Part shown: positions 1 through 23,950 of the stretch, in pieces
How the letters are laid out: each line of letters begins with the position of its first letter
Numbering within the stretch: position 1 is the first letter of the stretch
Source of the DNA: a virus
Direction: 5' to 3' (one strand)
DNA: 25,044 nucleotides
Virus record (IMG/VR): IMGVR_UViG_3300025168_000618
Span: 1-25,044 of that record
The notes under the pieces: model-generated
Told to the model about the DNA's origin: nothing
Databases searched by the model: none
The model's input: only the letters and a program-made list of their open reading frames with translations
Program-made: the position numbers and the translations under genes

Positions 1-725
1 TACCAAATACAAGTACTCTTAAATTTAGAATTGGTGCTAAACCATTTGTATTAACAGATAGTAGTACAAATTCAACAACAGACTTTACTACAATTGCAAG
101 TGCAACATATCATGCACAAGGGTTGTCCACAATCCAACAAGAAACAATTCTTTCTACTAGAGAACCAATCTTTAGTCAAGAAGAATTAACACAATCAAGA
201 ACAGAGTTCCAAGATGTTATGAGTTTCAAACATAAAAATGATCTTATTTCTTCTGTTATTAATAGTCCAGCTCCTCCATGTCGTAGAGGTTGTAGAAGAG
301 GTTGTTTCTTAGAAGGTACACCTGTAACAATGGCTGATGGTAGTGTTAAACATATTCAAGACATCCAGCTAGGAGAAAAAGTATTAGAAGGTGGTATGGT
401 TTATGCTGTAGCTAAATTCTTAATAAATGATCTTTATGATTATGAAGGTGTATTTGTTGCTGGATCTCATGCTGTAAAAGAAAACAACAAATGGGTTAGA
501 GTAGAAGATAGTAAAAAAGGAATTAAACTTGACAATGGCGACCAGATAGTGTATACTTTAGGTAATGAGAATAAGAGAATTATGATAAACAATATTGAGT
601 TTACTGATTACTTTGAAGTCGCAGAACAAGAAGAATTTTTTAATGAAGGTGAAGAGTATTTTGATACTTGGACTGATAAAATACCAGCGTTTGAGAAAGA
701 GAAGATAGACACTCTAAACGCTTAG
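1..725 (+). CDS. Virion structural protein, C-terminal part ending in a Hint domain (5' end outside window)
   Basis: The open frame (first full codon at 3) is already running at the window edge, so the TTG at 123 is not taken as the start. The first ~90 visible residues (FRIG..FVLTDSSTNST, then QQETILSTREP) resemble, from memory, the middle of DUF4815-type cyanophage structural proteins. A Cys/Arg-rich linker (CRRGCRRGC) ends at the Cys codon 303-305. This Cys starts a Hint fold of about 105 residues: CFLEGTPVTMADGS (intein block A-like), AGSHAV with the block-B His, and a final RIMINNIEFTDYFEV strand. No C-terminal His-Asn splice junction or C-extein follows, so hedgehog-like thioester processing is more likely than classical splicing, if it is active at all. 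The likely role is in the tail or baseplate. AGGAG for the next gene overlaps the stop codon. Confidence 0.75.
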   Translation, partial: PNTSTLKFRIGAKPFVLTDSSTNSTTDFTTIASATYHAQGLSTIQQETILSTREPIFSQEELTQSRTEFQDVMSFKHKNDLISSVINSPAPPCRRGCRRGCFLEGTPVTMADGSVKHIQDIQLGEKVLEGGMVYAVAKFLINDLYDYEGVFVAGSHAVKENNKWVRVEDSKKGIKLDNGDQIVYTLGNENKRIMINNIEFTDYFEVAEQEEFFNEGEEYFDTWTDKIPAFEKEKIDTLNA

Positions 726-736
726 GAGATTATATA

Positions 737-1360
737 ATGAACTATCAAAAAACGTGTTTTGAGATATTTAAAACTCATTACAAATCTATAGCTGAAGAAT
801 ATCAAAATCATAAAAACCCAACTTATTTAGATCAACATGATTTTTCTGATGGTGCCGATACATATGTTGAAGGTACATGGTATGCAGTGGGTATAAGTTC
901 TGAAGATAGAAAAGTACAGGAAGAAAGTACTTATCCTATTTTATACTCTATATTAGATAAATTTCCATACAAAATGAATTGTGCATTTATGGTTGTTAAA
1001 CCAAATACTACTATTGGTAATCATAAAGATAGAGAAGGTGGTTGGAGATATCAGCTTACTATTGATGATGGTGGTGGAGATAATAGTGGAATAAATTATA
1101 CTTATGTAAATGAAGAAGGATGGCCTCAACAAGAAACTCATATATTTAAAAATGGTAACTCAGTAATTATACAACCTGGTAAACAATTACACAACGGATG
1201 GAATAAAAATCCAAGAAAAAGAGTAACTTTATTACTTGACTTTTATGATGAAACAGTATACAATAAAAAAGACTTTATAAAGTATCGCAATAATTATAAT
1301 GATGCTTTTAATAGTTCAGGGGATTTGTGTGACATATATGAAGGAAGAAAAGTTGGATAA
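737..1360 (+). CDS. 2OG-Fe(II) dioxygenase, aspartyl/asparaginyl beta-hydroxylase-like
   Basis: The 207-aa product has the facial-triad pattern of a cupin-fold 2-oxoglutarate/Fe(II) oxygenase: His96-x-Asp98 in GNHKDREGGWRYQL, a distal His152 in KQLHNGWN, and basic residues about ten positions later (PRKRV) that could bind the 2OG carboxylate. Motif spacing resembles the Asp/Asn beta-hydroxylase group rather than prolyl hydroxylases. The substrate is unknown. Such genes are frequent in marine T4-like phages. The start is supported by AGGAG at 724-728, 8 nt upstream. No late-promoter octamer precedes it, so it is probably read from the upstream structural gene. It is the first of three 2OG oxygenases in the window. 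The family call is solid; function in infection is inference. Confidence 0.75.
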   Translation: MNYQKTCFEIFKTHYKSIAEEYQNHKNPTYLDQHDFSDGADTYVEGTWYAVGISSEDRKVQEESTYPILYSILDKFPYKMNCAFMVVKPNTTIGNHKDREGGWRYQLTIDDGGGDNSGINYTYVNEEGWPQQETHIFKNGNSVIIQPGKQLHNGWNKNPRKRVTLLLDFYDETVYNKKDFIKYRNNYNDAFNSSGDLCDIYEGRKVG

Positions 1361-1907
1361 GATATTAGTTATTGGACATACCAAAGGTATTGGTAAAGCT
1401 GTATATGATTATTATAATAAAAAAGGTCATACTGTAAAAGGATTAAGTAGATCAAATGGTTTTAATCTATGTGATCCAAAAAAGTTTTATAGACATATTT
1501 TTGCTTATGATTGGATTATATTAAATGCTTTTTATTATGACTCACAATATAAACTTCTTAAACATATTGTGGACAAATATGAAAACAAAAAGAAAAAAAT
1601 TATAGTTATAACAAGTACTTCTGGTACAGATATATGTTTTGATAAAACAATTGAAGCTGATAGTTATAAGGAATATAGTAGACATAAAAGAAAACTTATA
1701 AAATATATTGAAAAGATTCAACAAAGATTAGTAGATAAACCACTACAAATATTTGATGTTTGTCCGGATATTGTTGATACACAAATGAGTAAAGGTCTAT
1801 GGGTTAATGCTAAAAAATTAAAACCTATAGAAGTTTCAAAGGCAGTACAGTTTTGTTTAGAAAGTAAATTTAATGTTAATAGAATAGTAATACAAAAAAA
1901 ATGCTAG
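1338..1907 (+). CDS. Short-chain dehydrogenase/reductase-like protein
   Basis: The 189-aa product begins with a Rossmann strand and glycine-rich loop (ILVIGHTKGIGKAV, residues 9-22), matching the TGxxxGxG cofactor loop of SDR enzymes. LNA near residue 62 sits where NNAG normally is. ITSTSG near 91-96 can give the catalytic Ser, and Tyr113-x3-Lys117 (YSRHK) matches YxxxK. The catalytic set therefore looks intact, in a compact protein (SDRs are usually about 250 aa). An NAD(P)-dependent oxidoreductase is likely; the substrate is unknown. An in-frame ATG at 1299 would add 13 hydrophobic residues and a 62-nt overlap. The ATG at 1338 is preferred because it starts just before the Rossmann strand, although no strong ribosome site is visible. 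The codons are very AT-rich. Its neighbours suggest a small accessory enzyme cassette. Confidence 0.68.
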   Translation: MKEEKLDKILVIGHTKGIGKAVYDYYNKKGHTVKGLSRSNGFNLCDPKKFYRHIFAYDWIILNAFYYDSQYKLLKHIVDKYENKKKKIIVITSTSGTDICFDKTIEADSYKEYSRHKRKLIKYIEKIQQRLVDKPLQIFDVCPDIVDTQMSKGLWVNAKKLKPIEVSKAVQFCLESKFNVNRIVIQKKC

Positions 1908-2368
1908 TCAGTGCTTGGAATTTAGATATAGATTATGACACATTAGTTGATTGGTGGCAGCAACATGATTTTGGACAAGTACCAAAAGAATGCTTACCTC
2001 CTATTGGTGTTATGGTTACACATAATGATAAACCAATATGTGCTGGAGGCTTATATGTTTGTGATGGAACAAAGTTTGCTTTTATGGAGTGGATTGTAGC
2101 TGATCCAAAAGCTCCTCCTAAGTTAACTCATAAATGTATTAAGTTGTTAATTGATGAATTAATTAGTAAAGCCAAAGATGGAGGATGTTTACTACTTTAT
2201 ACAGTTACAGAAAATCCAGGATTACATAAAAGGTATGTTAAGTATCATGGATTATCACAAGGTGAGAAACATGCTAGAACATTTATAAAAGATTTAACAG
2301 ATGGTAGTTACGGACCATTGTTATGGGCTAAAAGCCAAGAAGTGCTTGACGAAGAACCCAAGAATTAG
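1901..2368 (+). CDS. GNAT-like N-acetyltransferase
   Basis: The 155-aa product has a GNAT-like layout: an N-terminal helix (DYDTLVDWWQQHDF), a beta-rich centre (GVMVTHNDKPICAGGLYV, then FAFMEWIVADP), a helix (LTHKCIKLLIDELISKAKDGG), and a C-terminal strand-helix (LLYTVTENPGLHKRYVKYHG) of the kind that closes the acetyl-CoA fold. The pyrophosphate loop Q/RxxGxG/A is not clearly visible, so the call rests on overall pattern and is moderate. The acceptor is unknown. It overlaps the preceding gene by 7 nt, which suggests translational coupling. It ends directly at a late-promoter octamer (2369-2376) and so is probably the last gene of the transcription unit that begins upstream of the window. Confidence 0.55.
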   Translation: MLVSAWNLDIDYDTLVDWWQQHDFGQVPKECLPPIGVMVTHNDKPICAGGLYVCDGTKFAFMEWIVADPKAPPKLTHKCIKLLIDELISKAKDGGCLLLYTVTENPGLHKRYVKYHGLSQGEKHARTFIKDLTDGSYGPLLWAKSQEVLDEEPKN

Positions 2369-2376
2369 TATAAATA
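2369..2376 (+). promoter_or_regulatory. T4-type late promoter octamer (TATAAATA)
   Basis: This is a perfect match to the T4 late-promoter core. It directly follows a stop codon and starts 29 nt before the ATG of the 516-aa structural gene. Recognition by a gp55-like late sigma factor is inferred from the phage type. Confidence 0.7.
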
Positions 2377-2397
2377 GATTAGAGAAAAGGTAAAAAC

Positions 2398-3948
2398 ATG
2401 GCATTAAAGAATTTAGCTCAGTCTTTCAGAGTTCAAAACAGACCTGGTGGTGTATTTGTAACAAAAGTAGATTTGTACTTTTCAAAAAAAGATGCATTAC
2501 TTCCAGTAACAGTTTCAATAAGAGAGATGAAATTAGGTGTACCTACAAAAAGAGTAGTACCATTTTCATCAATAACAAAGTTTCCATCAGATACTGCAGC
2601 ATCAAATGATGATTTTGTAAGAGTACAAACAAGTACAGATGGATCCAAAGCATCTACATTTCATTTTAAATCACCAGTATATTTAAAGAATGATACTGAT
2701 TATGCACTAGTAGTAACACCAGGTGGTAATTCAAAAAATTATAGTGTATGGACAGCTAAACTTGGTGACTTTGATAAAGGTACAACTAATATTATTAGTG
2801 AACAACCATTAGTAGGTACATTATTTTTATCTGCAGATGGAACAACATTTACAGAATCACAAGATATAGATTTAAGATTTACAATGTATTGTGCTAACTT
2901 TGAATCTACAGGAACATTAGTTCAAGAGAATGAAAAGTTTGATGATCTTACTATAGCACCAATATCAGGGGGAACATTTAAAACTGGTGAGTTAGTTTTT
3001 GGTAATACAACCAGTGGTCATGCTTTTGCTAATACAAAAGGTAGTGGTGTTGTAAAATCTTATGTTGCAAATACTGTTACAAAGTTAGTATTAGGAAATA
3101 GATTAAATTCAGCATATACTGTTGGTATGAAAGTTAATGGTCAAGAATCAAATGCAGTAGGTACAATCACAGCTATTAATGATTACTTAGTAGATACTGT
3201 TCATTATAACTTTGGTGTTATTAATCTTGGAGATACTGATTTGAGTTCTTCATTAAAAGCAACATCTAATAATAATGTTCAAGATAGTTCGTTTGGAACA
3301 AAGATAGAATTAAACAGAGACATTGATATGATTAATGTTAAAAAAGTTATGAGTTATAGTAATGAGATTGCAAACCTTTCTGGTAAAAAATCAAGTCTAT
3401 TACAAACAACTATGACAACAAGAAATGCAAACATATCTCCAGCAATTGATATTGAGAAATCAACTGCATATTTAATTAATAACTTGATCAATAATACTTC
3501 AACTAATGAAACAAATGCTAGTGGTGGAGATGCGGAAGCAAGATATATTACAAGAAGAGTTACACTTGCAGATAATCAAAATGCAGAAGATTTATTAGTT
3601 TTTTTGACTGCATATAAACCATCAGAAACAACTATTAATGTTTATTACAAAATATTAAATAGTGCTGACTCAGAAGACTTTGATGATAAGAGTTATGTTG
3701 AAATGACTCAAGTAACTAACACAGGTACAAATTCCGTAACAAACAATTTAAGTGATTTTATTGAATATAAGTATCAAATTCCATCAGCCAATATGACTGG
3801 AATTAGTAATGCTGTTGCATATACAAGTGGTCTAGGAGCAACATTTTCTGGATTCAATGTGTTTGCAATTAAGATAGTTATGCTTAGTACTACTGATGTT
3901 GTAGTACCACAGATAAGAGATCTTAGAGCAATTGCATTGCAAGTATAA
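2398..3948 (+). CDS. Virion structural protein, C-terminal half of a DUF4815-like family
   Basis: The 516-aa product opens almost at once with LAQSFRV..GGVFVTKVDLYFS, then PVTVSIREMKLGVPTKRVVPFS and a block ending FHFKSPVYL..DTDYALVV. From memory, this order is characteristic of large cyanophage tail/baseplate structural proteins (DUF4815 type), where it lies in the interior of a longer chain after a segment like the one encoded at 3-260 here. The remainder (about 180-516) is beta-rich and Asn/Thr-rich. The ATG at 2398 has a weak purine-rich site (GAGAAAAGG) and its own late promoter. The protein is probably assembled into the tail. It appears to be separated from its former N-terminal half by the Hint domain and three enzyme genes. 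Confidence 0.7.
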   Translation: MALKNLAQSFRVQNRPGGVFVTKVDLYFSKKDALLPVTVSIREMKLGVPTKRVVPFSSITKFPSDTAASNDDFVRVQTSTDGSKASTFHFKSPVYLKNDTDYALVVTPGGNSKNYSVWTAKLGDFDKGTTNIISEQPLVGTLFLSADGTTFTESQDIDLRFTMYCANFESTGTLVQENEKFDDLTIAPISGGTFKTGELVFGNTTSGHAFANTKGSGVVKSYVANTVTKLVLGNRLNSAYTVGMKVNGQESNAVGTITAINDYLVDTVHYNFGVINLGDTDLSSSLKATSNNNVQDSSFGTKIELNRDIDMINVKKVMSYSNEIANLSGKKSSLLQTTMTTRNANISPAIDIEKSTAYLINNLINNTSTNETNASGGDAEARYITRRVTLADNQNAEDLLVFLTAYKPSETTINVYYKILNSADSEDFDDKSYVEMTQVTNTGTNSVTNNLSDFIEYKYQIPSANMTGISNAVAYTSGLGATFSGFNVFAIKIVMLSTTDVVVPQIRDLRAIALQV

Positions 3949-4169: not shown

Positions 4170-4778
4170 ATGTCGTTTAAAAATTTGTTTAGTGTTCCCA
4201 TCTTTCATGGGAAAGTTGATAATTATAAAAAATATAATAGGGATCTTCTTCCCGCTTGTCAAGAAATTCGAAAAGAAACAGAAGATATGACTGACCTGCC
4301 ATGGAATTGTAATGTGTGGTCAACATATGCTTATGATGCTCAAGTATTTAAAAGACCTCAATTCCATGAGATAGCAAAAGTTATTGGAATGTATGTTAGA
4401 GAGTATATTGATAAAAGAAAATGGAAACATGAGTCAAAAATATTAATGACAGAGATGTGGGTCAATTATCAAGACAAGTATCAGTATCAAGAGTATCACG
4501 ATCATAGGGAGAGAATAGTGTCAGGAATCTATTATATCGACGTACCTGAGGGTACCCCAGGAATAATGATGCAGACTCCCCTAAAAGCTAATTTTGATGA
4601 TTTAATGTTTGATGAAGAGTCTTGTCAAGAAGTTAATCATCTTGATATACAGACAGGAGATATTTTATTATTTCCAAGTTGGTTAAATCATGGAGTAAAA
4701 GCTAACTTAACAGATAAACCAAGAATCAATGTAGCGTTTAATTTTGGATCACCGGAGTGGGTAAATGTCTTTGGTTGA
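4170..4778 (+). CDS. 2OG-Fe(II) oxygenase-like protein (2OG-FeII_Oxy_5 / TIGR02466 type)
   Basis: The 202-aa product carries EYHDHRERIVSGIYYIDVPEGTPG (residues 108-131), and later GDILLFPSWLNHGVKAN with His174 and PRINVAFNFG with Arg185. This order (HxH, SGxYYxxVP, LFPSxLxH, R/K..I.FN) is the signature of the putative 2OG-Fe(II) oxygenase family common in marine phages and bacteria. The first metal-binding pair is His110-Asp111-His112, so the classical HxD is replaced by HxH, as is usual in this family. The substrate is unknown. The gene lies 3 nt after the coiled-coil gene and overlaps the next oxygenase by 14 nt, so the two oxygenases are translated together. Confidence 0.75.
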   Translation: MSFKNLFSVPIFHGKVDNYKKYNRDLLPACQEIRKETEDMTDLPWNCNVWSTYAYDAQVFKRPQFHEIAKVIGMYVREYIDKRKWKHESKILMTEMWVNYQDKYQYQEYHDHRERIVSGIYYIDVPEGTPGIMMQTPLKANFDDLMFDEESCQEVNHLDIQTGDILLFPSWLNHGVKANLTDKPRINVAFNFGSPEWVNVFG

Positions 4779-5283
4779 TGTTTATGATGACTTAATCACA
4801 AAAGATTTATTATTAGAATTAGAACAATATGTGTCAGGTTTTACTTATTCAAGATTTGAAACAGATAATGAAGAATATGACTTTAAAACTAACACACATG
4901 ACTTTGATCATAAAGACCCATTATTAATAAAATGTCAACAATTATTTTGGAATAAACTTAAAAATAATGTTGACATTATCTTAACAAGGTTGTATTGTAA
5001 TAAAATATTAGCTGGAGATAGTCCCACATCTCATTATGATGGAAAATATGATGTTGACACAACTGTTCTTGTATATGTCAATAGTGAATGGGATCATAAT
5101 GAAGGTGGTGAAACTTTATTCTATAATAAGGATAAAGAAGTTGTGCAAGCGGTAGTTCCAAAACCAGGAAGAGTTGCAATATTTCCAGCTAATATACTAC
5201 ATAGTGCAAGACCACCATTGCCATATGTTACTAAACCAAGATATACGGTGGCTTATAAGTATGAATATGGACTTCTTGTATAA
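4765..5283 (+). CDS. 2OG-Fe(II) dioxygenase, prolyl-4-hydroxylase-like
   Basis: The 172-aa product has a full triad: His90-Tyr-Asp92 (SHYDGKYD), His146 (NILHSARPP) and Arg159 (KPRYTVAY) for 2OG. Between them are VLVYVN..W..NEGGETLFY and PGRVAIFPA, the standard prolyl-4-hydroxylase-type core. It could hydroxylate proline or another residue in a protein; the target is not evident from sequence. The start overlaps the preceding oxygenase by 14 nt and is supported by GGAG at 4754-4757, 7 nt upstream. It is followed by late-promoter octamers, one of which overlaps its stop codon. The presence of a collagen-like fibre elsewhere in this window makes virion proteins a possible substrate (inference). 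Confidence 0.8.
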   Translation: MSLVDVYDDLITKDLLLELEQYVSGFTYSRFETDNEEYDFKTNTHDFDHKDPLLIKCQQLFWNKLKNNVDIILTRLYCNKILAGDSPTSHYDGKYDVDTTVLVYVNSEWDHNEGGETLFYNKDKEVVQAVVPKPGRVAIFPANILHSARPPLPYVTKPRYTVAYKYEYGLLV

Positions 5284-20052: not shown

Positions 20053-21714
20053 ATGGCAATAGAATTGTTTGGCTTTCGCATTGGTCGAAAGGAAGATGAA
20101 CAGAAATTAAAAGACGATAATCTTAAATCGTTTGTTCCACCAACTACGGATGATGGAGCAATTGAAATTGCAGCGGGCGGTGCTTACGGTACATATGTAG
20201 ACCTTGAGGGTTCAGCAAAATCAGAAGCAGAATTAGTTACAAGATATAGAGAAATGTCACTCCAACCGGAATGTGATTCTGCTATTGATGATATTGTAAA
20301 CGAAGCTATAGTATACAACGAAAAGGAACCAGCGGTTTCAATTGTATTAGATGATCTCAAAGTAAGTAATTCAATAAAAAATAAAATTAGAGAAGAGTAT
20401 AACAAAATACTTATGATGTTAAACTTTACTACTAATGCTTACGATCTATTCAGAAAATGGTATATTGATGGTAGATTATATTATCATTTAGTTATTGATG
20501 AAAGTAATCCAAGATTAGGTATTCAAGAATTAAGATATATTGATCCAAGAAAAATTAGAAAGATAAAGCAAGCTATCAAAAGAAAAGATGATCAGATGGA
20601 TGCTATTGTTACTAAAGGATATAATGAGTATTACATATATCACCCAAGAGGAATCAATAGAGCAAACCAAGGATTAAAAATATCCAAAGATAGTATTTCA
20701 TATACACATAGTGGTTTATTAGATCAAAGAATGTTATTAGTTCTTGGTCATCTACACAAAGCAATTAAGCCATTAAATCAATTAAGAATGTTAGAAGATG
20801 CTACTGTAATTTACAGATTAGCAAGAGCACCTGAAAGAAGAATCTTTTATATAGATGTTGGTAATTTACCTAAAGTAAAAGCTGAACAGTATCTAAGAGA
20901 TATGATGGTTAAGCATAAGAATAAATTAGTATATGATGCATCTACAGGTGAAGTCAGAGACGATAGAAAGTTTATGACTATGTTAGAAGATTTTTGGTTA
21001 CCAAGAAGAGAAGGTGGTAAAGGTACAGAGATTACAACATTGCCTGGAGGACAAAATCTAGGTGAAATGGATGATGTAGATTACTTTAAGAAAAAACTAT
21101 ACAAAGCACTTAATGTTCCTATAACAAGAATGGAATCTGAAACTAATTTTAATCTTGGTAGAGCATCTGAAATTACTAGAGATGAATTAAAGTTTACAAA
21201 GTTTGTACAAAGACTAAGAAATAAATTTACTACTCTATTTGATAATATTCTTGAAATACAATTAGTATTAACAGGAGTTACTACCAGAGCTGAGTTCAAA
21301 GAAATGAAAGAGCATATACATTATGACTTCTTAGAAGATAATCATTTCACTGAATTAAAGTATGGTGAAATTATGGGTGATAGATTAAGATTACTTGGTG
21401 AAGTTGATGCATTTGTTGGTAAGTATTTTAGTAAAGAATATGTTCGTAAATCAGTGTTGAGAATGAATGAAGATGAGATAGAAAAAGAAGAGGACAGGAT
21501 GAAGACAGAACTTCAAGACGAGCCAGAAGAAGATGGTGAAGATCAACAACAAGATCAACAGCCAGAGCCAGAACCAGAACCAGAGCCTGAGCAACCTCAA
21601 GAAAGTTTTCAAGCTGCCAATACAATATCTGAAGAAGAGAAATCATTAGTAAATAGTATGACTAAGATTATTGAAGAAACTTTAGATGATAAGGCAGAAG
21701 AAGATGGAAAATGA
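20053..21714 (+). CDS. 20: gp20 portal protein (T4-like)
   Basis: The 553-aa product (T4 gp20 is 524) shows the portal signature throughout: LVTRYREMSLQPECDSAIDDIVNEAIV, FRKWYIDGRLYYHLVID, LRYIDPRKIRKIK, LEDATVIYRLARAPERRIFYIDVGNLPKVKAEQYLRDMM, FWLPRREGGKGTEITTLPGGQNLGEMDDVDYFKKKLYKALNVPITRM, and EITRDELKFTKFVQRLR. Dodecamers form the DNA gateway at the head vertex and nucleate prohead assembly. The C-terminal 55-60 residues are unusual: acidic and low complexity, with a Gln run and repeated Pro-Glu (nt 21541-21600). Its end overlaps the following fibre gene. The ATG has AAAGG upstream. Confidence 0.96.
   Translation: MAIELFGFRIGRKEDEQKLKDDNLKSFVPPTTDDGAIEIAAGGAYGTYVDLEGSAKSEAELVTRYREMSLQPECDSAIDDIVNEAIVYNEKEPAVSIVLDDLKVSNSIKNKIREEYNKILMMLNFTTNAYDLFRKWYIDGRLYYHLVIDESNPRLGIQELRYIDPRKIRKIKQAIKRKDDQMDAIVTKGYNEYYIYHPRGINRANQGLKISKDSISYTHSGLLDQRMLLVLGHLHKAIKPLNQLRMLEDATVIYRLARAPERRIFYIDVGNLPKVKAEQYLRDMMVKHKNKLVYDASTGEVRDDRKFMTMLEDFWLPRREGGKGTEITTLPGGQNLGEMDDVDYFKKKLYKALNVPITRMESETNFNLGRASEITRDELKFTKFVQRLRNKFTTLFDNILEIQLVLTGVTTRAEFKEMKEHIHYDFLEDNHFTELKYGEIMGDRLRLLGEVDAFVGKYFSKEYVRKSVLRMNEDEIEKEEDRMKTELQDEPEEDGEDQQQDQQPEPEPEPEPEQPQESFQAANTISEEEKSLVNSMTKIIEETLDDKAEEDGK
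21541..21600 (+). repeat. Gln-rich and Pro-Glu dipeptide low-complexity stretch in gp20
   Basis: Twenty codons (residues 497-516) encode a Gln/Asp run followed by five Pro-Glu pairs. This is a likely disordered C-terminal tail of the portal, or slippage-prone coding DNA. Confidence 0.8.
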
Positions 21715-23950
21715 CATCAAAAATGCTAAGGTCCTTGCTACATCACTAGCATTTACTAAACAAGAAATTAAAAAACTTAGAGCTGATTTTAGTAACTACA
21801 AACTAAATGAAGATAAATTACCTCGTGGTCCAAAAGGAGATATTGGACCTCAAGGACCTAAAGGCGAATCTGGTCCAGATAGAAAAATCATAATAGAAGC
21901 AAAAGGTCCTGTTGGACCAAAAGGAGATAAAGGTGAAGCTGGTAGAGCTATCAATGCAGCTTTTATTGAAGAAGGTAAATTACACTTAAATTACACAGAT
22001 GGAGAAACAGCTGATATTGGATCTATTGTAGGTCCAAGAGGTGGTCAAGGTATACCAGGACAAAAAGGTGAAAGAGGATTAATTGGTGAAGAAGGAAAAC
22101 AAGGATCTAAAGGTGAAGTAGGACCACGTGGTACTATTGGACCAAGAGGATTACTTGGTGAACAAGGACCAATTGGACCAATAGGACCAATTGGATTACA
22201 AGGCGATAAAGGAGAAAAAGGTGATAAAGGTGAACAGGGTGAACCCGGTATACAGGGCATACAAGGACTACAAGGACTTATCGGACCGAGAGGCGAGACG
22301 GGCGAGCGAGGTACAATTGGGCCACAAGGATTACAAGGACCTAGTGGAAAAGATGGTACGTCGGTAGATCTTAAACCTCTTAAAGACGAATTAACAGTTG
22401 ATCTACAATCTTTTAAAAATAATATAAGTGCAAGTATAACTAGAAGAAACTTAGCAAGTAGTGGTGCTGGTGGTGGTATAGGACCAAGACCTAAAACAAC
22501 ATTACATGTTAGAGATATACTTCCAGAGTCAAATGTAACATTTAATTTAGGATCCGAAGAAAAAAGATTTAAAGATTTATTCTTATCTGGTAATACATTA
22601 TCTCTTGGAGCAACAGAAATAAAAGCATCTGCAGATGGTGGTATTGAACTACCTGCAGTTGAAGCTAATACAATGTTGGTGATGAACCCAGCTAGTTATC
22701 AACTTTTTACAACTAAAGTAATTACTAAAACATCTGCTCATCCATATACTGGTCAAGGTTCAAGTTTAGCTTATTCAATAAACGGTAAAGAGTCACCTTC
22801 ATTAATTCTTGTACCAAATATGACTTACAGGTTTGATCAATCTGATAGTTCAAATGGAAGTCATCCACTAAGATTTTACAAAGATGCAGCTAAAAGTACA
22901 TCTCATACTACAGGTGTAACAACAAATGGAACACCTGGATCAGCAGGCGCTTATACACAAATAGTTATAACAGAAACTACACCAACAGTATTCTATCAAT
23001 GTTCTTCTCATGCACATATGGGAAGTGTTGCGACTACAACAGTAGGTACAATACAACAACAAGATATAACAAACGCTGTTAATGATTTAATAGATGCAGC
23101 TCCATCACAACTTAATACGTTAAATGAGTTAGCTGCTGCATTAGGAGATGATGCTAATTTTGCTACCGCAATTACCTTATTAATTAATGACAGAGCACAG
23201 GTTGCAAATGTTGCTTCATTAGCTGCATTAGCAAATACAAATTCAGGAATAGCATTACTTAATACAAACTTAGTTGGATCCAACACAGCACTTAGAACAT
23301 TAATTAGTGATAGAGCTCAAGTTGCTAATGTTGCAAGTTTAGCTGCACTTGCTAATACTAATCTAGCTATTGGTAATCTAAACACTAACTTAACTGGAAG
23401 TAATACTGCATTAAGATTATTAATAAACGATAGAGCACAAATTGCGAATGTTGCTTCTTTGGCTGCTTTAGCGAATACAAATGCAGCAATAGGAAATTTA
23501 AATACAAATCTTGGAGGTACTAATACAGCTATAAGAACTTTAGTTAGTGATAGATTACAAGTTGCAAATGCTTCAGCTACTTTTACTACAAAAGCATATG
23601 CAGCTGCTAACTCATATGTTAATTCTACATTTGTTAAACCAGATGCAACAAATATAAGTTTTTCTGGACAATCAGTAACAATCACTGGTAACTTAATAGT
23701 GCAAGGTACAACCACACAAACAACAACTTCAAGTTCAAATGTTGAGAGTGCATTTATGATACTTAATGCTGGTTTAGATGGAACACCAAGTAATGATGCT
23801 GGTATAAAAGTAAATAGAGGAAATCAAGCAAATGTTGAAATAAGATTTAACGAAACAGGAAATAAATTTGAATTTACTAACGACGGTACAACATTTAATG
23901 AGCTAGGATCTGTTAGTGATTCGTTAGCTTTTGCTATAGCTTTGGGATAA
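21704..23950 (+). CDS. Collagen-like tail fibre with cupredoxin-like domain and 40-aa repeats
   Basis: The 748-aa product contains, in order: a helical N-terminus; short Gly-X-Y blocks; a main block of 36 uninterrupted Gly-X-Y triplets (22031-22357); a fibre segment DILPESNVTFNLGSEEKRFKDLFLSGNTLSLG; a cupredoxin-like domain (22735-23053) with His at 22862 and CSSHAHM at 23000-23020; three 40-residue repeats (23183-23542); and a tip ending SDSLAFAIALG. The ATG at 21704 is preferred over 21686 because it gives a smaller overlap with gp20 (11 nt). T4 has head genes 67/68/21 at this position, so a fibre gene here is an insertion relative to T4. A host-binding fibre is likely; copper binding is inference. 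Confidence 0.75.
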   Translation: MENDIKNAKVLATSLAFTKQEIKKLRADFSNYKLNEDKLPRGPKGDIGPQGPKGESGPDRKIIIEAKGPVGPKGDKGEAGRAINAAFIEEGKLHLNYTDGETADIGSIVGPRGGQGIPGQKGERGLIGEEGKQGSKGEVGPRGTIGPRGLLGEQGPIGPIGPIGLQGDKGEKGDKGEQGEPGIQGIQGLQGLIGPRGETGERGTIGPQGLQGPSGKDGTSVDLKPLKDELTVDLQSFKNNISASITRRNLASSGAGGGIGPRPKTTLHVRDILPESNVTFNLGSEEKRFKDLFLSGNTLSLGATEIKASADGGIELPAVEANTMLVMNPASYQLFTTKVITKTSAHPYTGQGSSLAYSINGKESPSLILVPNMTYRFDQSDSSNGSHPLRFYKDAAKSTSHTTGVTTNGTPGSAGAYTQIVITETTPTVFYQCSSHAHMGSVATTTVGTIQQQDITNAVNDLIDAAPSQLNTLNELAAALGDDANFATAITLLINDRAQVANVASLAALANTNSGIALLNTNLVGSNTALRTLISDRAQVANVASLAALANTNLAIGNLNTNLTGSNTALRLLINDRAQIANVASLAALANTNAAIGNLNTNLGGTNTAIRTLVSDRLQVANASATFTTKAYAAANSYVNSTFVKPDATNISFSGQSVTITGNLIVQGTTTQTTTSSSNVESAFMILNAGLDGTPSNDAGIKVNRGNQANVEIRFNETGNKFEFTNDGTTFNELGSVSDSLAFAIALG
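22031..22357 (+). repeat. Collagen-like Gly-X-Y block (36 triplets plus Gly)
   Basis: All 36 triplets are uninterrupted. Pro occurs mainly at X; only GIP and GEP place it at Y. Lys is frequent at Y. Two shorter blocks precede it (21828-21878 and 21905-21943). Confidence 0.95.
23183..23569 (+). repeat. Three 120-bp coding repeats plus a partial fourth
   Basis: Units start at 23183, 23303 and 23423, with a 27-nt remnant at 23543. Each encodes 40 residues (pattern I.DRAQVANVASLAALANTN, then NTNL.G.NTALR.L). DNA copies have diverged, mostly at synonymous positions. Confidence 0.9.

Follow-up and report, generated by a model that had tools for sequence, protein, structure and literature searches.

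A Hint domain and linked enzyme genes at the break of a split VrlC baseplate protein in an uncultured virus

The split VrlC locus and its Hint domain

The window analysed here, a 25,044-base virus fragment from IMG/VR, begins within a gene for VrlC, a baseplate component that replaces T4 gp7 in pelagi- and cyanomyophages and that, in pelagimyophages, lies at the margin of the variable host recognition cluster (PMC7029224); our analysis concerns the break between the two halves of this protein, which holds a Hint domain and genes for an AspH-like 2-oxoglutarate (2OG)/Fe(II) oxygenase of the Asp/Asn-hydroxylase kind, an SDR oxidoreductase and a GNAT (Table 1). The left-edge open reading frame (ORF; 3-725) comprises the end of the first half, VrlC-N, and a 140-residue Hint region starting at the Cys encoded at 303. 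The VrlC-N tail (3-302) corresponds to positions 1342-1408 of phrog_358 (E 1.2e-9), and the second half, VrlC-C, matches the same family over 2398-3945 from position 1424 on (E 2.7e-96). A near-identical IMG/VR contig, L002, supplies the complete upstream protein of 1641 residues, with the Hint beginning after residue 1501 and VrlC-N without it measuring 1501 residues. Pfam detects DUF4815 in two relatives of the first half, one Hint-bearing (L157) and one Hint-free (L008).

Table 1. Features of the split VrlC locus, in window positions
Feature	Position	Strand	Basis and remarks
C-terminal end of VrlC-N (DUF4815 baseplate protein)	3..302	+	phrog_358, HTVC008M VrlC, L002 full ORF; linker end ...APPCRRGCRRG
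Gly at -1 of the predicted scissile bond	300..302	+	sequence
Hint domain (residues 1-105) with long C-terminal helix	303..722	+	profile, alignment, AlphaFold2, Foldseek; stop codon 723-725
Cys1, predicted nucleophile for the N-S acyl shift	303..305	+	invariant, alignment A3
Block-B His56 (V-A/S-G-S/T-H)	468..470	+	invariant; alignment to NEQ068 intein block B 'GITLSANHLVL'
FTDYFE motif, last strand of the Hint fold	600..617	+	Phe, Thr, Asp invariant; alignment, model
AspH-like 2OG/Fe(II) oxygenase (PF05118)	737..1360	+	38.2 bits against a cut-off of 22.6
SDR oxidoreductase	1338..1907	+	start inferred at ATG 1338, overlapping AspH; Pfam below cut-off
GNAT (phrog_17252)	1901..2368	+	overlaps SDR by 7 nt; Pfam below cut-off, phrog and fold support
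T4-type late promoter element TATAAATA	2369..2376	+	21 nt before the VrlC-C ATG; kept in 5/5 close relatives examined
VrlC-C, separate 516-residue protein with its own ATG, no IntC sequence at start	2398..3948	+	phrog_358

A preliminary description of the window had already read the locus as a structural protein split in two with a Hint domain at the break, and the search for single chains across the junction that was set beforehand found them: in the Pelagibacter phage HTVC008M both halves lie within one VrlC ORF of 2001 residues, and VrlC is fused in 77 of 98 classified loci and split in 21 (duplicates included), so that homologues are not always two proteins. A Hint of the window type stands at the junction in none of the 77 fused loci (duplicates again included); the fused-VrlC contig L154 has one, but on another, downstream gene. 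Every Hint-bearing VrlC is split, and GNAT, or AspH, SDR and GNAT, lie between the halves wherever the contig extends that far. The 1.67 kb first given for the interval holds when counted from the Hint stop codon, whereas from the Hint Cys to the start at 2398 the distance is 2.1 kb. The starts of VrlC-C (MALKNLAQSF, MAVTSQGYKINKQPIAQSF, MAYSLAQSF and others) show neither a His-Asn-nucleophile arrangement nor an IntC in any split locus, in agreement with the earlier opinion that trans-splicing was unlikely, and VrlC-C, a separately translated chain, probably joins non-covalently. Abundant marine T4-like phages can, in other words, encode a core protein of their baseplate as two chains.

Other modules occupy the same VrlC break, which makes the junction a modular boundary: L056 (2446-6537) has a different Hint family there (CLLEDMKVML...YTVHGHYE), and L008 (2946-6971), L084 (3494-7486) and L010 have Cys-led non-Hint modules, such domains reading HCCTAAQKRGDMNF... 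and ICTALNEIYGFGSF.... One IMG/VR contig, L007, was dropped because its replication-type genes and a short Gly-rich start run straight into the middle of VrlC-C; it is probably an assembly chimera.

By profile the Hint is sub-threshold (Pfam Hom_end_hint, 28.9 bits against a gathering cut-off of 32.1). The AlphaFold2 model, built from 47 sequences, has a mean predicted local distance difference test score (pLDDT) of 87.6. Among PDB structures it is matched best by BIL2, by class 3 and gp41-1 inteins and by Vint, then by BIL and, lower down, by Hedgehog; for BIL2, the gp41-1 intein, Vint and BIL the Foldseek probability is 1.00. Structure prediction thus returns the anticipated Hint fold rather than a non-Hint one. 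Invariant in alignment A3 of 47 sequences are Cys1, Gly5, Thr6, the paired Gly30-Gly31, His56, Trp64 and the Phe-Thr-Asp of FTDYFE; the usual block-B Thr is Ala in the window and mostly Ser across the family, and at -1 there is a Gly in 50 out of 60 distinct members and an Arg, Leu or Lys in the others. In the model a helix of ~34 residues follows the Hint, after which the protein ends. None of the family members examined has block G (His-Asn) after FTDYFE or a C-extein +1 nucleophile, and a homing endonuclease, for which the window Hint offers neither room nor a profile match, is present in none of them either. With terminal Asn, C-extein nucleophile, IntC and endonuclease all missing, splicing is excluded on sequence, and the cis-intein and trans-splicing readings were rejected on that ground. 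A near-invariant Asn at the C terminus of the Hint tail was also considered as a catalytic residue and rejected: the DNA reads ..AATGCTTGATAA.., and the Asn is there because of the overlap with the start codon of the next gene.

Between the window and L002 there are 17 differing sites in 10.9 kb of overlap; 12 of them fall within 334-379 (46 nt, Hint block A) and all but one within 128-379. L002 resembles L005/L006 in the 334-379 stretch, which looks like a short recombination tract.

The Hint-GNAT cassette and its enzymes

The cassette of Hint and enzyme genes is a recurrent module independent of VrlC, a feature that the preliminary description had missed. A search by Hint alone retrieved about 68 loci; the window-type Hint is always C-terminal and sits on at least four unrelated virion-type proteins of uncultured phages, namely VrlC-N, Gly-rich adhesin-like proteins of ~480 residues, proteins of ~1000-1280 residues from the tail-gene region, and proteins of podovirus-like genomes, one of them encoded between the portal and major head genes. 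GNAT lies downstream of every one of the 69 distinct phage Hints whose contigs extend far enough; the remainder of the 75 distinct matches comprises five that end at a contig edge, one of which (L129) shows a GNAT-like start in its last 82 bases, and L198, a bacterial Hint without GNAT outside the window Hint family. The reverse searches found a Hint upstream in 19/19 GNAT loci with upstream DNA, in 50/50 AspH loci and in 47/47 cassette-type SDR loci, while divergent SDRs without a cassette occur at 33 loci; among the loci compared, the linkage is obligate. Where AspH and SDR are absent between them, the gap from Hint to GNAT runs from -32 to +18 nt, the reading frames often overlapping, and where AspH comes next its start codon often shares bases with the Hint stop; a fused Hint-GNAT ORF was seen at none of the Hint loci. 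The AspH-SDR pair occurs in most Gly-rich loci and in the VrlC clade of the window and is missing from many Hint-GNAT loci; GNAT seems to be the core partner of the Hint, and AspH-SDR an extension. Over 63 loci, Hint distances rise with GNAT distances (Mantel r 0.73, 0/2000 shuffles as high); the Hint tree has too few columns for a reliable count of module transfers.

The identities of the three enzyme genes, as first described, were upheld by Pfam, phrog_17252 and fold. The iron-binding HxD...H and 2OG Arg of AspH (H96, D98, H152, R162) are invariant in 47 sequences, and the GxxxGIG and YxxxK of SDR (G10, G14, G16, Y110, K114) in 41. The GNAT model has a pLDDT of 93.6 and GNATs as its top Foldseek matches, and Tyr112 is conserved as a catalytic-Tyr-type motif; where the acyl-coenzyme A (CoA) loop would read R/Q-x-x-G-x-G/A, the window has K-L-T-H-K-C and L094 has R-S-V-H-T-A. 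Median ratios of nonsynonymous to synonymous substitution (dN/dS) are 0.056 for Hint, 0.042 for AspH, 0.044 for SDR (7 pairs only) and 0.063 for GNAT, figures that are approximate given dS values above 1 and that indicate strong purifying selection on the Hint and enzyme genes.

No isolate phage belongs to the window-type Hint family among 50,697 phage records searched with the window Hint and the L136 tandem Hint, the matches being VrlC, recombinase genes with an intein-like block A, and another tail Hint; nor do the remote GNATs of Cellulophaga, Tenacibaculum and a spring podovirus have a window-type Hint alongside. The cassette does occur in L190, a GTDB contig of a Verrucomicrobia metagenome-assembled genome, which is probably a mis-binned phage contig because of its Gly-rich phage protein.

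Some cassettes carry tandem Hints (L132, L136, L148, L149, L176-L178, L180, L184, L188), in which an upstream intein-like Hint ending ...VVHN is followed by K or KG and then by the window-type Hint. Their carriers are Gly-rich or other virion-type proteins, and GNAT accompanies them whereas AspH-SDR is absent. In the protein between portal and major head genes (L181, 2765-3985; 406 residues) the Hint Cys comes immediately after a stretch resembling a glycine zipper (GGTIGTSVGGPVGGAIGSAIGAAIG), which suggests an ejection protein that inserts into membranes. In the cultured Achromobacter phage 2-1 (L273, 4083-7589) a tail-region protein ends in another Hint after CNCDCNCSC and is followed by an unknown gene and a radical SAM gene, which may be a further case of a modifying enzyme accompanying a virion Hint.

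The preliminary description had assigned a late promoter to VrlC-C. The element TATAAATA is conserved about 21-30 nt upstream of VrlC-C in the window clade, but the motif is not enriched across the window (5 found against 5.3 expected), so that the evidence for a promoter rests on position and conservation; in other split lineages VrlC-C nearly abuts GNAT with almost no gap. Beyond VrlC-C and a small structural-protein gene lie two further 2OG-Fe(II) oxygenase genes (4170-5283), making three within 5 kb of the window, and 21686-23950 encodes a fibre-like protein of 754 residues that contains a long GXY repeat resembling collagen.

Proposed chemistry and alternative readings

We think it rather likely, though well short of certain, that the locus is a Hint-coupled virion-protein operon, in which a Hedgehog/BIL-like thioester module cleaves or transfers the C terminus of VrlC-N and dedicated enzymes serve that reaction. 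By analogy with known Hint chemistry, Cys1 would attack the preceding Gly peptide bond to give a thioester; hydrolysis, or else handover of the VrlC-N C terminus to an acceptor, would then free the chain of the Hint and its helical tail. GNAT, being translationally coupled, may be a dedicated partner enzyme that uses or modifies the acceptor or the product, AspH and SDR would, where present, act as a pair to oxidise that product, and VrlC-C would enter the baseplate as a second chain with no ligation. The exteins are unrelated whereas the enzymes after the Hint stay the same, and the substrate that these enzymes have in common is therefore more likely to be the Hint or its adduct than the extein. 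Of the two options that the preliminary description had offered, a self-cleaving C-terminal module on the upstream half is the better one, the cleavage itself being predicted from known Hint chemistry.

A tentative reading, possible but one that we would not back as it stands, is a phage Hedgehog-like conjugation, whereby the Hint thioester is captured by an amine of a small molecule or protein made or delivered by GNAT, with AspH and SDR tailoring it in the extended form, and virions come to carry a covalent non-standard C-terminal group. Such a group on baseplate and adhesin proteins might act in receptor binding, and, were the thioester indeed transferred, phages would possess a means of adhesin modification like that of Hedgehog.

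Several points weigh against a Hint-coupled operon. The evidence is wholly comparative, and all members come from uncultured viruses, the presence of their products in virions being a prediction. Split VrlC without a window-type Hint exists (L008, L010, L084 and L085, as well as L056 with its other Hint), and the split hence needs no such Hint. The block-B Thr is replaced by Ala in the window clade, and five loci of that clade have Arg at -1, which is less favourable than Gly. The degenerate RxxGxG/A loop means that the GNAT may not use acetyl-CoA. Finally, among 16 deep representatives Hint and GNAT distances are uncorrelated (r 0.13; 422/2000 shuffles as high), so that what the data establish is linkage of the two families rather than long co-inheritance of exact pairs.

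Of the alternatives, the one that survives best, although we judge it unlikely, takes the Hint for a mere folding or capping module, chaperone-like and simply hydrolysed off once assembly is complete, and regards the enzyme genes as host-takeover or metabolic ones placed in the operon for the sake of expression timing. Tail proteins commonly have autocleaving chaperones at their C termini, and many Hint-GNAT loci do without AspH-SDR, as this reading would have it; yet GNAT linkage is 69/69 and reciprocal and AspH is found only with Hint, which is unlike passenger genes, since these would be expected elsewhere too.

We regard as improbable the other option of the preliminary description, a decayed intein or homing element that entered vrlC, was stripped of its endonuclease and C-terminal half, and left the gene in two pieces with enzyme genes piling up in the gap. 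In its favour, the Hint coincides exactly with the point at which the protein runs on as one chain in relatives, block A finds its best PDB sequence match among inteins, and the break is also taken by other modules. Decay, however, sits badly with the invariance of Cys1, His56 and FTD and with dN/dS values of 0.04-0.06 (0.056 for the Hint itself); no fused VrlC of the set holds the window-type Hint, neither endonuclease nor block G appears in any member examined, and the Hint is C-terminal on unrelated virion proteins on which the same GNAT and other enzymes are fixed, a recurrent module by which this reading is largely refuted. Most improbable of all is a split intein that trans-splices VrlC-N to VrlC-C through a short or unrecognised IntC: although the break separates halves that elsewhere form one chain and the first half ends in an IntN-like Hint, VrlC-C starts with neither His-Asn-nucleophile nor IntC, the model places an F-like strand already inside the Hint, and the same Hint ends proteins that are not split halves.

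Comparison with known systems

To our knowledge, Hint domains outside inteins and Hedgehog mostly have no known role; the strictly conserved enzyme partners and the virion location of the cassette Hint make its role directly testable. No description of a Hint-GNAT phage system was found in the open-licence literature searched, and the pairing of a Hint with dedicated enzymes suggests, for these uncultured marine phages, an undescribed way to chemically finish virus particles.

As to VrlC/DUF4815 of T4-like cyano- and pelagiphages, the likeness is that both window halves belong to phrog_358, and the difference is that the window VrlC is split, with a Hint on its first half. With Hedgehog Hog, which combines Hint and a sterol-recognition region, the phage Hint shares the C-terminal position and fold, the invariant Cys1 and block-B His, the lack of a terminal Asn, an extra helical part C-terminal to the Hint and, in most members, a Gly-Cys junction; the Hedgehog thioester forms at such a junction, G197-C198 (PMC7906309). 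The Hedgehog autoprocessing mutant D46H is a Foldseek match to the phage Hint at rank 34 (E 0.018). The phage Hint differs in having no detectable sterol-recognition sequence, in its virion-protein carriers and in the dedicated GNAT, AspH and SDR enzymes of its operon.

BIL domains, including BIL2 of Tetrahymena BUBL, are the best structural matches (6y75, 6tmm, 2lwy) and, like the phage Hint, are non-homing Hints on variable host proteins. They normally retain, however, a C-terminal His-Asn block for C-terminal cleavage, which the phage Hint lacks; among the cassette loci a block of BIL type A/B occurs only in the additional upstream Hint of the tandem ones. Vint and Hom_end_hint give sub-threshold Pfam matches over block A, extending for Vint over blocks A-B, and the model matches the Vint crystal structure 8r2c, whereas the phage Hint has neither a VWA domain nor a homing endonuclease. 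Lastly, the cassette GNAT has its fold in common with the phage GNATs Rac, which acetylates host proteins, and Mom, which modifies DNA (PMC7824862), and keeps a catalytic-Tyr-type motif, but differs from both in its degenerate CoA loop and in its obligatory pairing with a virion-protein Hint.

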